Below, piece after piece: positions 24,893 through 60,541 of a stretch of 64,000 bases of DNA. How positions within the stretch are numbered: position 1 is the first letter of the stretch; each line of letters opens with the position of its first letter. The notes below the pieces were generated by a model. It was not told the DNA's origin. It saw only the letters and a program-made list of their open reading frames with translations, and ran no database searches. Location of the stretch: NCBI RefSeq assembly GCF_000185965.1, contig NC_014924.1, forward strand, positions 1,240,001-1,304,000. Direction: 5' to 3'. The translations under genes and the position numbers were made by a program. The DNA comes from Pseudoxanthomonas suwonensis 11-1 (GTDB lineage Bacteria; Pseudomonadota; Gammaproteobacteria; Xanthomonadales; Xanthomonadaceae).

Positions 24893-24969
24893 CGGGGTAT
24901 AGCGCAGCCTGGTAGCGCACTTGTCTGGGGGACAAGTGGTCGTCGGTTCGAATCCGGCTACCCCGACCA
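24893..24969 (+). tRNA. tRNA-Pro(GGG)
   Basis: A 77-nt cloverleaf with encoded CCA. The acceptor stem pairs CGGGGTA with TACCCCG, the anticodon stem CTTGT/ACAAG encloses CTGGGGG with anticodon GGG, and the T arm holds GGTTCGAATCC. Its 3' part from 24923 is the left prophage attachment site. The gene remains intact at this end, but its original terminator is now at 60552-60580. Confidence 0.97.
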
Positions 24970-24972
24970 AAT
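24923..24972. other. attL core
   Basis: Fifty bases from GTCTGGGGGACAAG in the anticodon loop to CGACCAAAT just past the CCA end, identical to 60492-60541. The flanks differ on both sides. Confidence 0.95.
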
Positions 24973-48901: not shown

Positions 48902-49300
48902 ATGGCCAAGGTGCAGGAAATCGTTGCCCGGGCGCTCCGCCTGATCCAGGTGCAGGACGCCCGGCAGCCGGTGAAGGCCGTGGACATGCAGACCGGCATC
49001 GCGGTGCTCAACGCGATGTGCGCGCGCTGGGAGGCCAACGGCCTGGCCATCGGCTGGCGGCCGGTCAGCAACCCGTCTGAGGACATGCCGTGCCCGCCGG
49101 AGGCCGAGGAAGCCATCGCGTTCAACCTCGCCCTGACCCTGGCGCCCGAGTACGGCACCGAGGCTCCGGGAATCGTGGTCGGTGCTGCTGCGCGCGGACT
49201 CTCCGACCTGCGGGCCGACGTGAAGGCGTCCAACCCCCTGCGCCCTGACCGCGGCGTGCTGCCGCACGGCTACGACACCCGCACGGATCGCTTCTACTGA
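48902..49300 (+). CDS. P22 gp4-like head-tail/packaged-DNA stabilisation protein
   Basis: A 132-residue protein of the gp4 tail-accessory type, with AKVQEIVARALRLIQVQDAR and LRPDRGVLPHGYDTRTDRFY. In P22 gp4 is the first plug protein added beneath the portal. It is followed directly (TGATG) by the gp10-like gene, as in P22. Confidence 0.8.
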   Translation: MAKVQEIVARALRLIQVQDARQPVKAVDMQTGIAVLNAMCARWEANGLAIGWRPVSNPSEDMPCPPEAEEAIAFNLALTLAPEYGTEAPGIVVGAAARGLSDLRADVKASNPLRPDRGVLPHGYDTRTDRFY

Positions 49301-51705
49301 TGCGCAACCAGCCCGTCCCCCTGGTCACTGGCTTCTACGCTGACCAGGACCGTCCGTTCTCGCAGCAGGACGTGTGGAACTACCTGCCGTGCCGCGCGGA
49401 GAAGCAGAGCACGCGCTCGCCCCTGATGCTCAAGACGCCGCCGGGCCTGTTCCCCTGGCTCGAGCTGGAGGGCGCGCCGCCGGTGCGCGGGATCCACGAC
49501 TGCGAGGGCCGGCTGTTCGCGGTGATCGGCTCGACGCTGTATCGGCTGTCGCCCAAGGGCGTGGCCATTCCGATTGGCTCGATCCCGGGCACCGGCCGCG
49601 TGTCGATGGACCACAACCAGCGCGCCAACGGGCAGCAGCTGACGGTGGTCAATGGCAGCGCCGGCTACGTCTTCGACACCCACACCGAGGTGTTCGAACG
49701 CATCACCGACAGCGGCTTCCCTGGCTCGCCCATCGTCCGGTTCATGGACGGCTACATGCTGGGACTGGATCCGGCGGGGCGGTTCGCGTTCAGCAGCGGA
49801 GCCGCCAACGCGCTGGACTACAACACCCTGGACCGCTGGACCTCCGAATATCGCCCGGACCGCCTGGTCAGCATGGCCCGGCTGGGCGGCGAGCTCCTGC
49901 TGCTGTCGGCAAACTCGGGCGAGTTCTTCGGCAACACCGGCGCCGCGCAGCAGCCGTTCCGCTCAAAGCGCATCTTCCTGGACAAGGGCTGCGCCGGCCC
50001 GCACACGGCGGTCGAGGCCGACAACACCGTCTTCTGGCTCGGCTCCGACGGCTACTTCTACCAGCTCGACGGCTACAACAGCCGTCGCATCTCCACGCGC
50101 CCGATCGAGCAGGCGATCCGCGGCCAGGACTGGTGGAACGCGTTCGGCTTCGTGTGGGAGTCCGAGGGACACACCGTCGTCTACTGGACCTTCCTCAACG
50201 GGCAGACCTGGGGCTGGGACACCTCGCAGCAGGAGTGGCACCGCCGCGAGTCCTACGGCCTGGACCGCTGGCGCCCCAGCTGCACCGCGCGCAGCGGCAG
50301 CGCCTGGTACGCCGGCGACTTCCAGAAGGGCCGAATCTGGCGCCTTGACTGGGGCTATCCGTGGGAGGGCGATACGGAGTTCGTGTCCGGCTTCACCCTG
50401 CCGGTCATCCACGACAACCAGAACGAGCTCGTGCACAGCCGGCTCGAGCTGGTCATGGACGTGGGGCAGGTCGCGGTGGCTCCGTCTCAGTTCCCGGAGC
50501 AGCCCGACCCGCCTTCCATCGAAGGGCACCCACCCGATGGCGTTGTCTCCATCCCTTACGCGGGCTTCCAGCCGACCGTAACGCAGGGAAGCGCTGGCAT
50601 CGCCAAGGTCGCCATCGTCTCCGGGAGCCTTCCCCCCGGCATCGAAGTGAGCAATGGGGTACTCGGAACCGAGCCGCCGCAGAAGAGCGGCACGTACACG
50701 GCCACCTGGCGTGTTACCGACAGCAACGGACTCTGGGCCGAGATGGAGCGCACCTTCTCGGTCGCATGCTTCGTGGAGGAGCCGACGCAGTTCATGGTGC
50801 ACGCCTACGGCCAGGTCCGATTTTCCGCCGATGGACTGGACTGGGGCGACTGGGAAGACGCAACCATTACCGGGAGCCTGATCACGGGGCTTAGCGACGG
50901 GTTCGTCATCTACGGAACCAATACGCCGTTTGTAAAGACCGTTGATGGCTCTGAGTTCACCCCTGCGACTGGCTCCAACTCGTCCCCTTCGTCAGGTGTC
51001 AGACAGTCGCAAGCGTCTATTGATGGCGAGAAGTTCGTAGCGGCAGGCGGCGTCCATGCCGTCAGGTACACCACGGATATTGCGGCGTCGTTCGATTCGG
51101 GAGAGGCGCCTAGTACCGCCATCTATTCCGTTGTCCCGCTCGGGGCTGGTTGGCTTGGCGTACAAACCCATCGACTTTACATGGCGCCCACTCCGGATGG
51201 CTCGTGGACAGAAACACTTGGCGCAGCTATTGGGCGTGACTTCTTATGCGCGTGGTCAGATGGAGGTCGTGCGCTCATTGGGGGGCTGACACCATCCGGG
51301 CCGGCCGCATGGTTTACGAGTAACGGAGCGTCGATTGGCGCACAGGCGCTGCCGTTCGTCTCAGCAACGAAGGTCACGGCCGTCTGCAAGGAGGCAGGTG
51401 GCGCGCGCTGGCTTCTCGGCACCGACAGCGGAGAGCTGGCCTATCTGGATGACGACGGGGAGGAGTGGGTGCTGTCCAGTACGGTCCTCCCGCATCCGGT
51501 CACCTGCATCGCGCATAACGGCATGCGTTTCGTGGCGACGTGCCAAGAGGAGGGCATCGTCGATCACCAGACCGAGGCCTGGTACAGCAACGACGGAGAT
51601 AGCTTCACGCACGCGTGGACCGAGGTGGCAGCCAACGCAGGCGTAACCGTGGCTGCCACCACCTACCAAGGCGCAGCTCCCGTCTGCGATATCACAAATG
51701 GCTGA
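49300..51705 (+). CDS. gp10-like DNA stabilisation protein with a large C-terminal insertion
   Basis: An 801-residue protein. Residues 1 to about 390 match P22 gp10-type stabilisation proteins (AYGVR-like SAGYVFDTHTEVFERITDSG, FFGNTGAAQQPFRSKRIF, DNTVFWLGSDGYFYQLDGYN). The family's last 70 residues are missing here and instead are encoded by the next gene. Residues about 400-490 form an Ig-like/putative He_PIG segment (VSGSLPPGIEVSNGVLG), and the rest has repeated SxDGxxW-like motifs of a beta-propeller. The insert has visibly lower G+C and altered codon use. Confidence 0.8.
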   Translation: MRNQPVPLVTGFYADQDRPFSQQDVWNYLPCRAEKQSTRSPLMLKTPPGLFPWLELEGAPPVRGIHDCEGRLFAVIGSTLYRLSPKGVAIPIGSIPGTGRVSMDHNQRANGQQLTVVNGSAGYVFDTHTEVFERITDSGFPGSPIVRFMDGYMLGLDPAGRFAFSSGAANALDYNTLDRWTSEYRPDRLVSMARLGGELLLLSANSGEFFGNTGAAQQPFRSKRIFLDKGCAGPHTAVEADNTVFWLGSDGYFYQLDGYNSRRISTRPIEQAIRGQDWWNAFGFVWESEGHTVVYWTFLNGQTWGWDTSQQEWHRRESYGLDRWRPSCTARSGSAWYAGDFQKGRIWRLDWGYPWEGDTEFVSGFTLPVIHDNQNELVHSRLELVMDVGQVAVAPSQFPEQPDPPSIEGHPPDGVVSIPYAGFQPTVTQGSAGIAKVAIVSGSLPPGIEVSNGVLGTEPPQKSGTYTATWRVTDSNGLWAEMERTFSVACFVEEPTQFMVHAYGQVRFSADGLDWGDWEDATITGSLITGLSDGFVIYGTNTPFVKTVDGSEFTPATGSNSSPSSGVRQSQASIDGEKFVAAGGVHAVRYTTDIAASFDSGEAPSTAIYSVVPLGAGWLGVQTHRLYMAPTPDGSWTETLGAAIGRDFLCAWSDGGRALIGGLTPSGPAAWFTSNGASIGAQALPFVSATKVTAVCKEAGGARWLLGTDSGELAYLDDDGEEWVLSSTVLPHPVTCIAHNGMRFVATCQEEGIVDHQTEAWYSNDGDSFTHAWTEVAANAGVTVAATTYQGAAPVCDITNG

Positions 51706-51919
51706 CCACACCATCCGCATGAGCTACTCCGACGACGGCCAGCCGAACTGGTCCGAGTGGGATGAGGCCAGCATCGGCGAGACCGGCCAGTACGGTCTGC
51801 GCATCGAGTGGACGCGGCTCGGCCGCTCCCGCCAGCGCGTCTACCGGTTCGAGTGCAGCAGCCCGCGCCGCCGCGACGTCCTGGCCGTGGTCGGCGTCTT
51901 CCAAGGAGTGAACCGGTGA
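51698..51919 (+). CDS. detached C-terminal domain of the gp10-like protein
   Basis: A 73-residue protein containing IRMSYSDDGQPNWSEWDEAS and YGLRIEWTRLGRSRQRVYRF, the domain that normally ends gp10-type stabilisation proteins. Its ATG lies 8 bp before the stop of the large gene, in the +1 frame. With residues 1-390 of the upstream protein it sums to about 463, near the 472 of P22 gp10. Confidence 0.7.
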   Translation: MADHTIRMSYSDDGQPNWSEWDEASIGETGQYGLRIEWTRLGRSRQRVYRFECSSPRRRDVLAVVGVFQGVNR

Positions 51920-52359
51920 GCGATAGCGAGCTGGCCCAGGTCGATGGCGCGCTCGAAGCGCTGCCGCCCCGTCCGACATACGAACAGGTGCGCCGCCTGG
52001 AGGCCTGCATGGCGCAGATGCCGCAGGTGGAATGCCCGCTCGAGCACCACTTCGCGCATGGCGTCTACGGCCGGCTGATGCACGCCAAGGCCGGCACGGT
52101 GATCGTCGGCAAGATGCACCGCTTCTCGACCCTCAACGTGTTGCTGGCGGGCGTGATCCGGGTGACGGGCCCGGACGGGGCGGTGCGCGACCTGCGTGCG
52201 CCCTGCATGTTCGTCTCCCCGCCCGGCTGCAAGAAGGTGGGCGCGGTGATCGAGGACGTCCAGTGGTTGAACGTGTTCCCCACCAAGCTCACCGACGTGG
52301 CTGCCATCGAGACGCAGTTCACCATCCCCGAAACCCCATTGATTGAGGACCAGCCATGA
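51916..52359 (+). CDS. cupin-domain phage protein
   Basis: A 147-residue protein with GTG start (GTGA overlap). Residues about 35-125 form a cupin-like double-stranded beta helix (LEHHFAHGVYGRLMHAKAGT, HRFSTLNVLLAGVIRVTGPD). Cupins of this kind occur in the virion module of several podoviruses. The His residues could bind a metal; no enzyme activity can be claimed. Confidence 0.7.
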   Translation: MSDSELAQVDGALEALPPRPTYEQVRRLEACMAQMPQVECPLEHHFAHGVYGRLMHAKAGTVIVGKMHRFSTLNVLLAGVIRVTGPDGAVRDLRAPCMFVSPPGCKKVGAVIEDVQWLNVFPTKLTDVAAIETQFTIPETPLIEDQP

Positions 52360-56936: not shown

Positions 56937-57743
56937 ATGTCCACCTTCCGCATCCTTGACCAAGCGCCCCAGTACCTGCTGCCCGACGGCAGGGTCAACG
57001 CCGGCGGCAGCCTGACCTTCTACGAGACCGACCTGACGACGCCGAAGCTCACCTGGTCCGATCCGGACCAGACCACGCCCAACCCCAACCCGATGCCGCT
57101 GGATGCGGCGGGGCGCACGCTCTACGACGTGTGGGGCGAGGGGGAGTACGGAGCGGTCATGCGCGACGCCGCCGGCGTGGCCATCTGGACCCGCAACAAC
57201 GTGCGCCTGGGCGGTGACGCCGGGCAGGAGATCCCGGCGCTGGTGGCGGGGCAGTTCCTGACCAACGACGGCTCGAACCTGCAGTGGGCGCCGATCCGCG
57301 AGGTTCCGGACCCGACGGGCTCCAACGGCCAGGTTCTGTCCACGGACGGCACCAACTTCAACTGGATTCCGCTGCCCGAACCGCCGGAGAGCGACATCGG
57401 CGTGCAGGTCGGCGCCGCCGGCTACCAGTGGACGAACGGCCTGCTGATCCAGTGGGGCGCCGGCCAGGCCCCGGCGAGCGGCGACAAGTCGACCTCCGAG
57501 GCGGTCGAGTTCCCGATCCTGTTCGACGACACCCCTTACTTCGTGGGCCTGACCCCGCGTCTTGGCACCATCACCAGCAACGGCTCGTTGGTCTGCGCCA
57601 CCTACACCAACCCCGGCAGCAGCGGGTTCAACGCCAACTTCAGCCTCGCCGACGACGACAACAAGTCGTGGAAGGCGATCAACGTGGCTGTGCCGTTCAC
57701 CTGGATGGCGATCGGCAAGAAGGCGACCCGCCCCGATGCCTGA
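56937..57743 (+). CDS. tail fibre-like protein
   Basis: A 268-residue protein. The N-terminus (LLPDGRVNAGGSLTFYETDL, TPNPNPMPLDAAGRTLYDVW) is a known podovirus particle-binding/collar-type domain. The C-terminal part (YQWTNGLLIQWGAG onward, FVGLTPRLGTITSNGSL) resembles gp53-like fibre tips. It probably takes part in host recognition. Confidence 0.75.
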   Translation: MSTFRILDQAPQYLLPDGRVNAGGSLTFYETDLTTPKLTWSDPDQTTPNPNPMPLDAAGRTLYDVWGEGEYGAVMRDAAGVAIWTRNNVRLGGDAGQEIPALVAGQFLTNDGSNLQWAPIREVPDPTGSNGQVLSTDGTNFNWIPLPEPPESDIGVQVGAAGYQWTNGLLIQWGAGQAPASGDKSTSEAVEFPILFDDTPYFVGLTPRLGTITSNGSLVCATYTNPGSSGFNANFSLADDDNKSWKAINVAVPFTWMAIGKKATRPDA

Positions 57744-58551
57744 CCTCGGCATGCTGAGGGCGCAGGCGCCCATCGTCCTGCAGGACGGCCGGCCGACGCC
57801 GGAGTTCTACGGCTACCTCCTGGGCCTGGACGCTGCACGCGGCACCGACTACGCCGCGCAGTTCCAGGCGCTGGCCGCGCGCGTCGCGGCCCTGGAGGAG
57901 GGCGGGACGCTCGCCCTGCGCGGCATCGGCTCGGTCAGCGTGCGCAACGGCGTGGTGCAGCTGCTGGCCGACGAGGACAACCTGGCCGGCAACAGCTACT
58001 ACGGCGCCAACGCCGCCGGGGAGCGCGGGTTCTGGCCGGTGGTGGACGCACTGGCCGCCGGCATCGGCCTGACGAAGGTCGCGCAGGTGCCGTGGAACGT
58101 GCTGGGCGAGCTGGACGACACCAGCCAGCTGCCGGCCTCGGCCGCCGCCGGCGACGCCTACCTGATCGACGGCGACTACTGGGTCTGGGGCAGCGGCGAG
58201 TGGAGCAACGAAGGCCCGCCACCCAACGCCGCAACTCTGGGCCTGTACCCCGGCACCGCCGAGGACGACGCCCTGCTGTGGGACCCGGTCGCAGGCGACT
58301 ACGTGCCCGCGCCGGCGCTGCGCAACCCGCTGGAGGCCCCGGGCGATCTGGTGCGCGCGGACGGCAGCGCCAAGCCTGAGCGATTGCCGGTGGGCACGGA
58401 CGGCCAGGTGCTGACCGTGGTGGCGGGGATGCCGGCGTGGGCGCCGCCCCCGGCCGCTCCTGCCGGCGGCGAAATCCTCGTGGCTGACGGCGTCTCGCCT
58501 CCCGTCATGCTCACCGACGACGGCGAGACCGACTTCCTCTACCAGGGGTAA
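57736..58551 (+). CDS. tail-associated structural protein
   Basis: A 271-residue protein, MPDLGMLRAQAPIVLQDGRP, with repeated fibre-like segments (DAYLIDGDYWVWGSGEWSNE). It overlaps the previous gene by 8 bp. It probably belongs to the tail fibre complex. Confidence 0.65.
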   Translation: MPDLGMLRAQAPIVLQDGRPTPEFYGYLLGLDAARGTDYAAQFQALAARVAALEEGGTLALRGIGSVSVRNGVVQLLADEDNLAGNSYYGANAAGERGFWPVVDALAAGIGLTKVAQVPWNVLGELDDTSQLPASAAAGDAYLIDGDYWVWGSGEWSNEGPPPNAATLGLYPGTAEDDALLWDPVAGDYVPAPALRNPLEAPGDLVRADGSAKPERLPVGTDGQVLTVVAGMPAWAPPPAAPAGGEILVADGVSPPVMLTDDGETDFLYQG

Positions 58552-58553
58552 CG

Positions 58554-59156
58554 ATGAAGGCCTCCGACAACGAATTTCCCAAGCTGATCCTCACCGAGGG
58601 CGCGCCCCCGGCCACGCCGGACGCTGGCACGGTGAAGGTGTATGCGAAGACCGATGGCGCCGTGTACGCGATGGACGACACGGGTGCGGAAACGCCGCTG
58701 GGCGGTGGGGGCGGGGGCTCCGGCGACGTGGTCGGGCCTTCCAGCGCCGTCGACGCGCGGGTGGCCGTATTCGACGGCACCAGCGGCAAGCTGATCAAGG
58801 ACGGCGGCGTGACCGTCGACGAGCTGGTGGCACAGGCGCGCACCTCGCCAGAGAACGTGCAAACGGGCACGGCCTACACGCTGGTCCTGGCGGACGCCTT
58901 CAAGCTGGTGGCGATGAACAACGCCAGCCCCAACACCCTGACCGTGCCGCCCAACAGCGCCGTCGCGTTCCCGGTTGGGACCCGCATCGACCTGAGCCAG
59001 GACGGCGCCGGCCAGACCACCATCGCGGCCGGCGCAGGGGTGACCATCCGCACGCCGGAGACGCTCAAGATCCGCAAGCAATACGGCAAGGCCACGCTCA
59101 TCAAGCGGGCGACCGACACCTGGGACCTGGAGGGCAACCTGGAGGCGACGCCGTGA
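58554..59156 (+). CDS. tail-associated structural protein
   Basis: A 200-residue, beta-rich protein, MKASDNEFPKLILTEGAPPA, with VYAKTDGAVYAMDDTGAETP and a Gly-rich linker. The segment YTLVLADAFKLVAMNNASPN occurs in many phage tail proteins. It is coupled to the next gene by GTGA. Confidence 0.65.
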   Translation: MKASDNEFPKLILTEGAPPATPDAGTVKVYAKTDGAVYAMDDTGAETPLGGGGGGSGDVVGPSSAVDARVAVFDGTSGKLIKDGGVTVDELVAQARTSPENVQTGTAYTLVLADAFKLVAMNNASPNTLTVPPNSAVAFPVGTRIDLSQDGAGQTTIAAGAGVTIRTPETLKIRKQYGKATLIKRATDTWDLEGNLEATP

Positions 59157-59920
59157 TTCCGCTTGGCATCCTCGCCGCGGCGTCGCCGCGAATCGCGCCG
59201 GCGCCTGTCCCCGAGGTGCCGGCGGATATATTCGCCGTCCCGGATACGCCGGGCTTTTGGTTTGACCCCTACGACCTAAGCACGCTGTTCCAGGATGCCG
59301 ATTGCGAGGTCCCCGTAGAAAACGATGGCGATTGGCTGTGGGTGGCGCGAGACAAGTCTGGCAATGGCCTGGATGCTGTCGCGGAGTCCTCGGGAACGCG
59401 CATCAAGTGGCGCACCGATGGGTCGCGGTGCTGGTTTGAGGGCAACCCGTCCGGCGGCGGGCGGCTGCGAATCGGCGGCTCCTACGCGGACACCAACTTT
59501 AGCGCCCTGCATCTAATCGCGCGTGCGCGCTCGGCCGCGGACACCAAGGGCCTGGTGGGCAAGCCGAACGCATCCCCTGCGGCCAGCCCATGGCTTCGCT
59601 GGGCGCTTGTCCACCAAACAGGTGCCCGCCTGCAGACGTGGTTCCAGGGGGCGCAGTACGCGACGGCGAACGGCTCCTGGAATATTGGGAGCGACGTGAC
59701 GGCGAGCCTTGATTCCGTGGTTGGCCAGCTCCGAGTCGGAAGCACCACCGCCTCCTTCACCCCTGCCACAATCACCTACCCCAACAACCTGCCGGCGTAC
59801 TTCTTCGACGACGGCAATGGCAACTATTTCAACGGCAGGTGCTATGGCCTTGTCGGCGTGGGTCGCGCGATGGTGGGCAGCGAGGCATCGGACCTGCGCG
59901 ACTACATGGACACCCGATAG
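59153..59920 (+). CDS. tail protein with lectin-like domain
   Basis: A 255-residue protein. From residue about 35 (FWFDPYDLSTLFQDADCEVP, VARDKSGNGLDAVAESSG) to the C-terminus (GRCYGLVGVGRAMVGSEASD) it has the concanavalin/laminin-G-like jelly-roll pattern typical of phage receptor-binding or tail-tip proteins. It is the last recognisable phage gene. The GTG start gives a GTGA overlap. Confidence 0.7.
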   Translation: MIPLGILAAASPRIAPAPVPEVPADIFAVPDTPGFWFDPYDLSTLFQDADCEVPVENDGDWLWVARDKSGNGLDAVAESSGTRIKWRTDGSRCWFEGNPSGGGRLRIGGSYADTNFSALHLIARARSAADTKGLVGKPNASPAASPWLRWALVHQTGARLQTWFQGAQYATANGSWNIGSDVTASLDSVVGQLRVGSTTASFTPATITYPNNLPAYFFDDGNGNYFNGRCYGLVGVGRAMVGSEASDLRDYMDTR

Positions 59921-60491: not shown

Positions 60492-60541
60492 GTCTGGGGG
60501 ACAAGTGGTCGTCGGTTCGAATCCGGCTACCCCGACCAAAT
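60492..60541. other. attR core
   Basis: Fifty bases identical to 24923-24972, a partial tRNA-Pro from the anticodon loop onward. Confidence 0.95.

Follow-up and report, generated by a model that had tools for sequence, protein, structure and literature searches.

Split gp10 tail hub genes in a Pseudoxanthomonas prophage and its relatives: a separate C-terminal module and an exchangeable cassette at the cut

How can a phage tail hub protein be cut in two, with several hundred residues of other sequence at the cut, and still be kept? The question is raised by a 64,000-nucleotide (nt) stretch of Pseudoxanthomonas suwonensis 11-1 DNA (assembly GCF_000185965.1, contig NC_014924.1, positions 1,240,001 to 1,304,000 of the forward strand), hereafter the window, which includes a prophage gene related to P22 gp10 that encodes 801 amino acids (aa) and overlaps a small downstream gene encoding 73 aa. 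We consider it probable that the tail hub specified by this locus is a two-chain gp10, in which the small product (the C-module) rejoins the hub in trans while the C-terminus of the large chain is freed for an exchangeable cassette.

The large open reading frame (ORF) spans window positions 49300-51705 and the small one 51698-51919, both on the plus strand and both with an ATG start. Comparison with PHROG 578 (head closure Hc3, the P22 gp10 family) revealed that residues 1-397 of the 801-aa product match profile positions 1-401 of 486 (E 1.3e-89), and that residues 8-62 of the 73-aa product match positions 409-463 (E 2.1e-6). Because the two matches follow one another in the same profile, the ORFs can be considered, on sequence grounds, to encode successive portions of a single hub protein that are separated by 411 residues. 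The gp10 body, residues 1-390 (49300-50469, plus strand), would include the N-terminal platform strands, the hub β-propeller and the first platform strands after the propeller. The C-module (51698-51919, plus strand) has as its counterpart the last ~70 residues of gp10 in intact relatives, and an alignment of 21 C-modules was assembled. The original prediction, made from the sequence alone, had taken residues 1-390 to be gp10-like and the 73-aa gene to be the displaced gp10 C-terminus, and both assignments agree with the profile matches and with the alignment of the small product to gp10 C-termini. The 73 aa match still better (E 1.6e-14) positions 525-587 of phrog_19101, a profile of 595 positions annotated as function unknown, which may be a family of proteins with a large insert or of cassettes joined to a C-module.

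As the locus consists of two ORFs of 801 and 73 aa and not of a single contiguous chain of ~470 residues, it was named a split gp10 variant and not a plain member of the family. The intact relative L009 has a single 477-aa gp10, with a body 70% identical to that of the window, in which the strand preceding the cut continues straight into the C-module. In ten pairs of C-modules the nonsynonymous substitution rate (dN) was 0.012-0.17 and the synonymous rate (dS) 0.25-0.96, with ratios of 0.05-0.27, which indicates that the C-module evolves under purifying selection; dN/dS is also low in the gp10 body.

The 411-aa cassette at the cut consists of a proximal Ig-like segment (50470-50784, plus strand), whose end was fixed at 105 aa for the analysis, and a distal propeller-like domain (50785-51705, plus strand) that closes the 801-aa ORF with the stop codon at 51703-51705. 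The proximal segment is He_PIG-like: its He_PIG match lies below the Pfam cut-off (15.9 bits against 24; E 0.018-0.047), its identity to the first ~100 aa of many other cassettes, with whose Ig part it aligns, is 34-45%, and the AlphaFold2 (AF2) model gives residues 391-490 block values of 74-92 for the predicted local distance difference test (pLDDT). The identification of the distal domain as a propeller rests on the AF2 model, with repeated strands at residues 527-777 (pLDDT ~50-86), and on the relatives; BNR models match 8 of 73 scanned inserts. Pfam returned no match in the distal cassette of the window and no BNR/Asp-box match anywhere in its insert, so that the propeller-like character noted at the outset is backed by the model and the relatives but not by a family assignment. 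NCBIfam returned no families for four proteins. Also in line with the original prediction are the lower G+C content of the insert (0.60-0.64, compared with 0.67-0.71 in the flanks) and its different codon use, the G+C fraction at third codon positions (GC3) dropping from 0.944 for the body to 0.81 for the Ig part and 0.69 for the distal part, and standing at 0.932 for the C-module.

Comparison of closely related loci supports the view that the insert behaves as an acquired cassette, as had been proposed, and as one that is exchanged. Among 12 pairs of representatives with bodies 94-97% identical, a set that leans to differing cassettes because the merging into representatives described below removes near-copies with a common cassette, eight have whole cassettes that are 27-34% identical and distal parts that are 23-32% identical (the three pairs among L033, L060 and L061, and L074/L076, window/L004, window/L011, L032/L079 and L078/L083). 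The C-modules are 88-100% identical in seven of these eight pairs and 76% identical in L078/L083. When all 197 pairs whose bodies share 72% identity or more are taken, the distal parts fall below 35% identity in 180; the average identity over the first 105 residues is 40%. The borders are sharp at the DNA level. In comparisons of the window with L004, L011 and L002, identity in 30-nt steps is 80-97% across 50350-50469; at the 5′ border, position 50470, it falls from 90-93% in 50440-50469 to 53-57% in the next 30 nt, and at the 3′ border, position 51698, it rises from 30-37% in 51669-51698 to 77-97% in the 30 nt from 51699. The best local cassette matches of the window to L004 and L011 span only the first 116-132 residues, and its nearest whole cassettes are those of L035 (29.5% identity over 393 aa, with a body 42% identical) and L002 (28% over 406 aa).

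The exchanged parts are diverse. A scan of the 73 inserts (E ≤ 0.01) found He_PIG in 46, any single propeller model in at most 13, Laminin_G_3 in three and GTA_TIM in one. Of three loci with bodies 96-97% identical, L033 has He_PIG and weak propeller matches under the Pfam cut-offs, L060 has He_PIG and an unassigned part, and L061 has a Laminin_G_3 domain (67 bits against a cut-off of 27.6). The distal part of L004, L007, L011 and L187 matched no model; we take it to resemble a sugar-binding jelly roll. In L093, L101 and L178 short repeats rich in GG-S/N-LR occupy the gp10 cut site instead of an Ig cassette.

The split is not confined to the window. A scan of 395 genomes of the host family, a less selected sample than the full set below although the window body served as query, found matches in 17, of which nine are split, seven are fused without a large insert and one is fused with a large insert; the split form was also found in another family of the class (genome G831, locus L056). 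Viral contigs were added to this set. After 24 loci that are short-flank copies of loci with a longer flank had been excluded by hand, among them L031, a second gp10 place in genome G299, 153 rows remained, 14 of which end within gp10 at the end of the contig or of the fetched stretch. L100, with a frameshift-broken body in its contig, and L174, with too short a body, were also dropped, and 133 usable rows including the window were merged into 105 representatives (bodies at least 97% identical, same class, insert length within 3 aa). These 105, again with the window, comprise 71 split and 34 fused forms; the sample is not random and favours split forms, one scan (A3) having been run with split forms as queries and having retained 80 of its 101 loci. 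On a body tree built by a quick method, with support only from the Shimodaira-Hasegawa-like approximate likelihood ratio test (SH-aLRT), at least 11 changes between the split and fused states are needed, 11 being forced by the starred branches, as against a mean of 29 when states were shuffled. In 18 phage isolate records with both body and C-module matches the two lie at most 280 nt apart by the listed coordinates, with no large insert, among the matches listed (60 of 165 rows of one search and all 32 of the other).

The position of the C-module varies, and every readable row has one. It was detected in 135 of the 153 rows, and the four others that are not cut short were resolved on re-examination: an apparent loss in L126, L127, L131 and L177 was rejected as an artefact of start-codon choice and short flanks. 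In L177 the C-module is found ~1.6 kb downstream, as seen in L178. In L126, L127 and L131 it is N-terminal in gp10, before the body, and the cassette stands at the free C-terminus. The N-terminal module of L131 is 38% identical to the 73 aa of the window over 65 residues. A further scan yielded an N-terminal C-module in 12 of 16 rows, from 11 contigs (L126, L127, which is the same as L179, L131, L180-L186 and L189); the full permuted order is visible in eight of the 12, the contigs of L185, L186 and L189 reaching no further than the end of the body and that of L184 stopping inside the cassette. The four remaining rows comprise two split forms, L187 and L190, and two truncated ones, L188 and L191. 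Judging by the order of its parts, this form is a natural circular permutation of gp10.

Separation goes further elsewhere. Two other genes lie between gp10 and the C-module in G1040 and L101, and one 166-aa ORF in L173; in L089, L093, L095 and L102 the C-module is the C-terminal end of another protein. The protein of L095, which joins GTA_TIM to a C-module, is 73% identical over 591 aa to a segment that in L036 is fused in frame to the body. In L089 and L102 gp10 stops 13-14 aa past the body and is followed by another ORF, which looks glycosyltransferase-like, and then by the protein that ends in the C-module. The 166-aa ORF of L173, and in L131 an ORF 1048-1501 nt after gp10, look HNH-endonuclease-like and lie near the junction of gp10 and C-module.

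How is the C-module translated? In the window the stop of the large ORF and the start of the small one share the 8 nt ATGGCTGA (51698-51705, plus strand), and the ATG lacks Shine-Dalgarno complementarity upstream (duplex energy 0.3 kcal/mol), which is consistent with coupling of the restart to termination. The C-module starts within ~25 nt of the gp10 stop in 65 of the 71 split representatives, at offsets of -1, -4 or -8 in 50 of these 65, and is non-adjacent or part of another protein in the remaining six. For three of the starts chosen by script, L078 and L081 (-11) and L075 (+12), the codon is GTG, and the alignment favours an ATG at +1, +1 and +24, respectively. The frame of the C-module relative to gp10 is +2 in 42, +1 in 18 and 0 in six of 66 representatives, L095 being counted by its cassette ORF. 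A conserved frameshift was rejected on this basis, because frameshifting needs a fixed frame relation and stop-restart translation does not. Of the two routes originally suggested, coupled translation fits the sequences, but frameshifting is not the general rule, with all three frames represented and the C-module non-adjacent in six.

Structure prediction indicates which parts of the body the C-module would meet. The AF2 model of intact L009 (mean pLDDT 88.7) superposes on P22 gp10 (8u10) with template modelling (TM) scores of 0.82/0.83 over 502 columns, and it also matches the Sf6 gp8, Pam1 and Pan3 chains over nearly their full length. Its strands before the position of the cut are at 372-380 and 387-398 and those after it at 409-415, 426-429, 438-443, 450-458 and 463-474; block pLDDT is 60-89 at residues 1-50, 83-89 at 361-400 and 65-90 in the C-module. 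The 801-aa chain of the window was modelled alone, with 31 alignment rows. Its propeller is mostly at 82-96, with 59-72 in 311-330 and 351-360, and pLDDT falls to 31-54 at residues 1-50 and 39-40 at 361-390. Against 8u10 this model gave a TMt of 0.56 over 331 columns, and against gp10 chains overall 0.55-0.59 over 310-345 columns; beyond these, Foldseek returned mostly tandem-propeller proteins of many kinds. The body segments that lose confidence when the C-module is absent are predicted to be those that should contact it.

We propose the following arrangement. The platform of an intact gp10 would be formed by three pieces, namely the N-terminus, the strands that follow the propeller and the last ~70 residues, and the cut would fall between the second and the third. 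Chain A (801 aa) would contain the propeller hub and end, at its freed C-terminus, in an Ig-like stalk and a propeller-like head. Chain B (73 aa), a product of stop-restart translation at the 8-nt overlap, would pack onto chain A and so complete the platform on the side of the gp4 adaptor ring. As the restart of chain B does not depend on frame, cassettes could be exchanged without a match of frame at their 3′ end. The circularly permuted genes seem to reach the same end, a free C-terminus of gp10, by another route. The exchange pattern, together with the lectin-type folds, suggests a role of the cassette at the host surface; fibre docking or stability is here indistinguishable from such a role. 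A wider reading, to which we give about even chances, is that the hub domain has been kept working in interchangeable topologies (one chain, two chains, permuted, or with a piece borne by the cassette) as the completing module docks in trans, the free C-terminus serving as an evolvable socket for surface modules and as a second site of host-recognition diversity beside the fibres and spikes.

Several observations weigh against the two-chain proposal. The restart sites of 65 relatives have a mean Shine-Dalgarno energy of -5.0 kcal/mol, compared with -4.4 at gp10 starts and -3.1 for random sites, and because of this resemblance to gp10 starts the C-module may be initiated independently in many relatives. 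Splitting is not strictly required for a large insert, as L036 carries a 526-aa insert in frame with all parts in one ORF, nor a large cassette for splitting, as in L190 only ~27 residues follow the body. Four of the 12 close pairs (L151/L157, L096/L097, L086/L087 and L004/L011) keep a common cassette, 66-96% identical. The drop of confidence in the 801-aa model may be due in part to the length of the chain or to the alignment, and low pLDDT also occurs in the cassette (491-525, 778-801 and others) and at 317-322.

Other explanations differ in how they account for the two ORFs. If ribosomes shifted frame or bypassed the stop so that cassette and C-module were joined, the virion would contain one long gp10 chain; the 8-nt ORF overlap and the single ORF of L036 would fit, but three frame relations occur among the relatives, in L002 a TAA precedes the C-module, which starts from an ATG of its own, in seven loci (L089, L093, L095, L101, L102, L173 and G1040) it is separated by coding sequence or lies within another protein, and 10 of 12 aligned free C-modules start with M-[ASPT]-D, making this route very improbable. 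Neither result that would have contradicted the original prediction turned up among the relatives examined: none has the 801-aa form with a C-terminal domain of its own, the insert of L036 being a different one, and the 73-aa product does belong to gp10. That the locus is merely a decayed prophage gene or a sequencing error is the least credible possibility and was rejected: it lies in a prophage (50-base-pair (bp) att repeat), but the same arrangement recurs in many contigs and genomes and dN/dS is low in both body and C-module.

The C-module might instead have left the hub for a separate free role, gp10 doing without it. Its location several genes away in L101 and G1040 is compatible with this, but it is unlikely, given the presence of a C-module in every readable row, its fusion in other relatives to the gp10 N-terminus, beside the expected packing site, and the low AF2 confidence of its partner strands when it is missing. 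The strongest competitor concerns not the two chains but the cassette, which might be structural, acting in tail stability, in docking of fibres or spikes or in sensing attachment, and not itself bind a receptor. The T7 fibres lie between the fibre dock of the nozzle and the adaptor, beside the platform (PMC6702177), and the prophage has separate tail-fibre-like genes downstream; on the other side, whole distal domains are replaced between bodies 94-97% identical, as in the diversification of surface-recognition proteins, and some have the lectin-type Laminin_G_3 fold. We regard a structural cassette as a serious alternative, though less likely than not.

Compared with known systems, the two-chain hub would differ in its topology. 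The solved chains of P22 gp10 and Sf6 gp8 (packaged DNA stabilisation protein) are single and ~470 residues long, whereas the window chain is cut within the platform domain and bears a 411-aa cassette. The closest solved sequences, to which the window body is homologous, are the hubs of Pam1 (7eeq, chain 7eeq_1; E 7.3e-16) and Pan3 (9vyg, chain 9vyg_M; E 7.1e-15); their folds are close but, unlike the window hub, they are single chains of ~445 residues. The T7 gp12 nozzle (tail tubular protein B) resembles the window hub in having a propeller, a platform of N- and C-terminal strands and added outer domains (PMC6702177). Its jelly-roll platform, the adaptor-binding part, takes three strands from the N-terminal 45 residues and the remaining ones from the C-terminal domain, and that study suggested that circular permutation had occurred in the history of gp12. 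The extra domains of gp12 lie in a loop of blade 3 and between propeller and platform, within one chain, while the window cassette interrupts the platform, whose remainder is encoded by a second gene. Distant members of the podovirus hubs align reliably only in the central propeller segment, as another report notes (PMC10386132). The TIM-barrel domain of gene transfer agents (GTA; PF13547) forms the in-frame insert of L036 and the cassette + C-module gene of L095, and is not in the window; these inserts show that the gp10 cut site accepts enzyme-like folds. A split or permuted gp10 was not recognised in the literature searched, a set without most subscription papers.

The prophage itself is P22-like. 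It is bounded by a 50-bp direct repeat (24923-24972 and 60492-60541) at tRNA-Pro and is ~35.6 kb long; it is integrated at tRNA-Pro(ggg) (24893-24972 and 60492-60541), with the repeat as the attachment (att) core. The genes follow the P22-type order portal, scaffold, coat, gp4-like adaptor and gp10, and the 801-aa and 73-aa ORFs are followed by a short-tail-fibre-like gene and a DNA-ejection-like gene. The gp4-like head-tail adaptor gene, expected beside gp10, lies at 48902-49300 (plus strand; PF11650 P22_Tail-4, E 7.3e-7; phrog_637, E 8.6e-22). The next gene after the C-module, at 51916-52359 (plus strand), encodes 147 aa assigned by PHROG to short tail fiber or tail fiber adhesin (phrog_12032, E 1e-32; phrog_24280, E 5.3e-32); its start was taken to be a GTG that overlaps the C-module stop as GTGA. 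Several other loci have other small genes in this place. Further short tail-fibre-like genes lie in a row at 56937-59920, one of 268 aa with Gp53-like_C followed by ones of ~270, 200 and 255 aa. Among the scanned window proteins, a subset of the ORFs, no P22-type tailspike was recognised and no gp26-like tail needle match was found.

In the gp10 and nozzle proteins of solved structure the hub is a single chain. The genes compared here have this domain in three states, intact, split and circularly permuted, and a hypervariable module occupies the cut. This offers a natural system for testing the assembly of split and permuted domains, and the permutation proposed for the T7 nozzle becomes part of a testable pattern. 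The arrangement may account for small unannotated genes 3′ of oversized gp10 genes, and points to a possible extra place, besides fibres and spikes, where short-tailed phages vary their surface. Cut or reordered forms recur many times among the relatives with different domains, which suggests that these viruses release one terminus of an essential component so that it can bear swappable modules.

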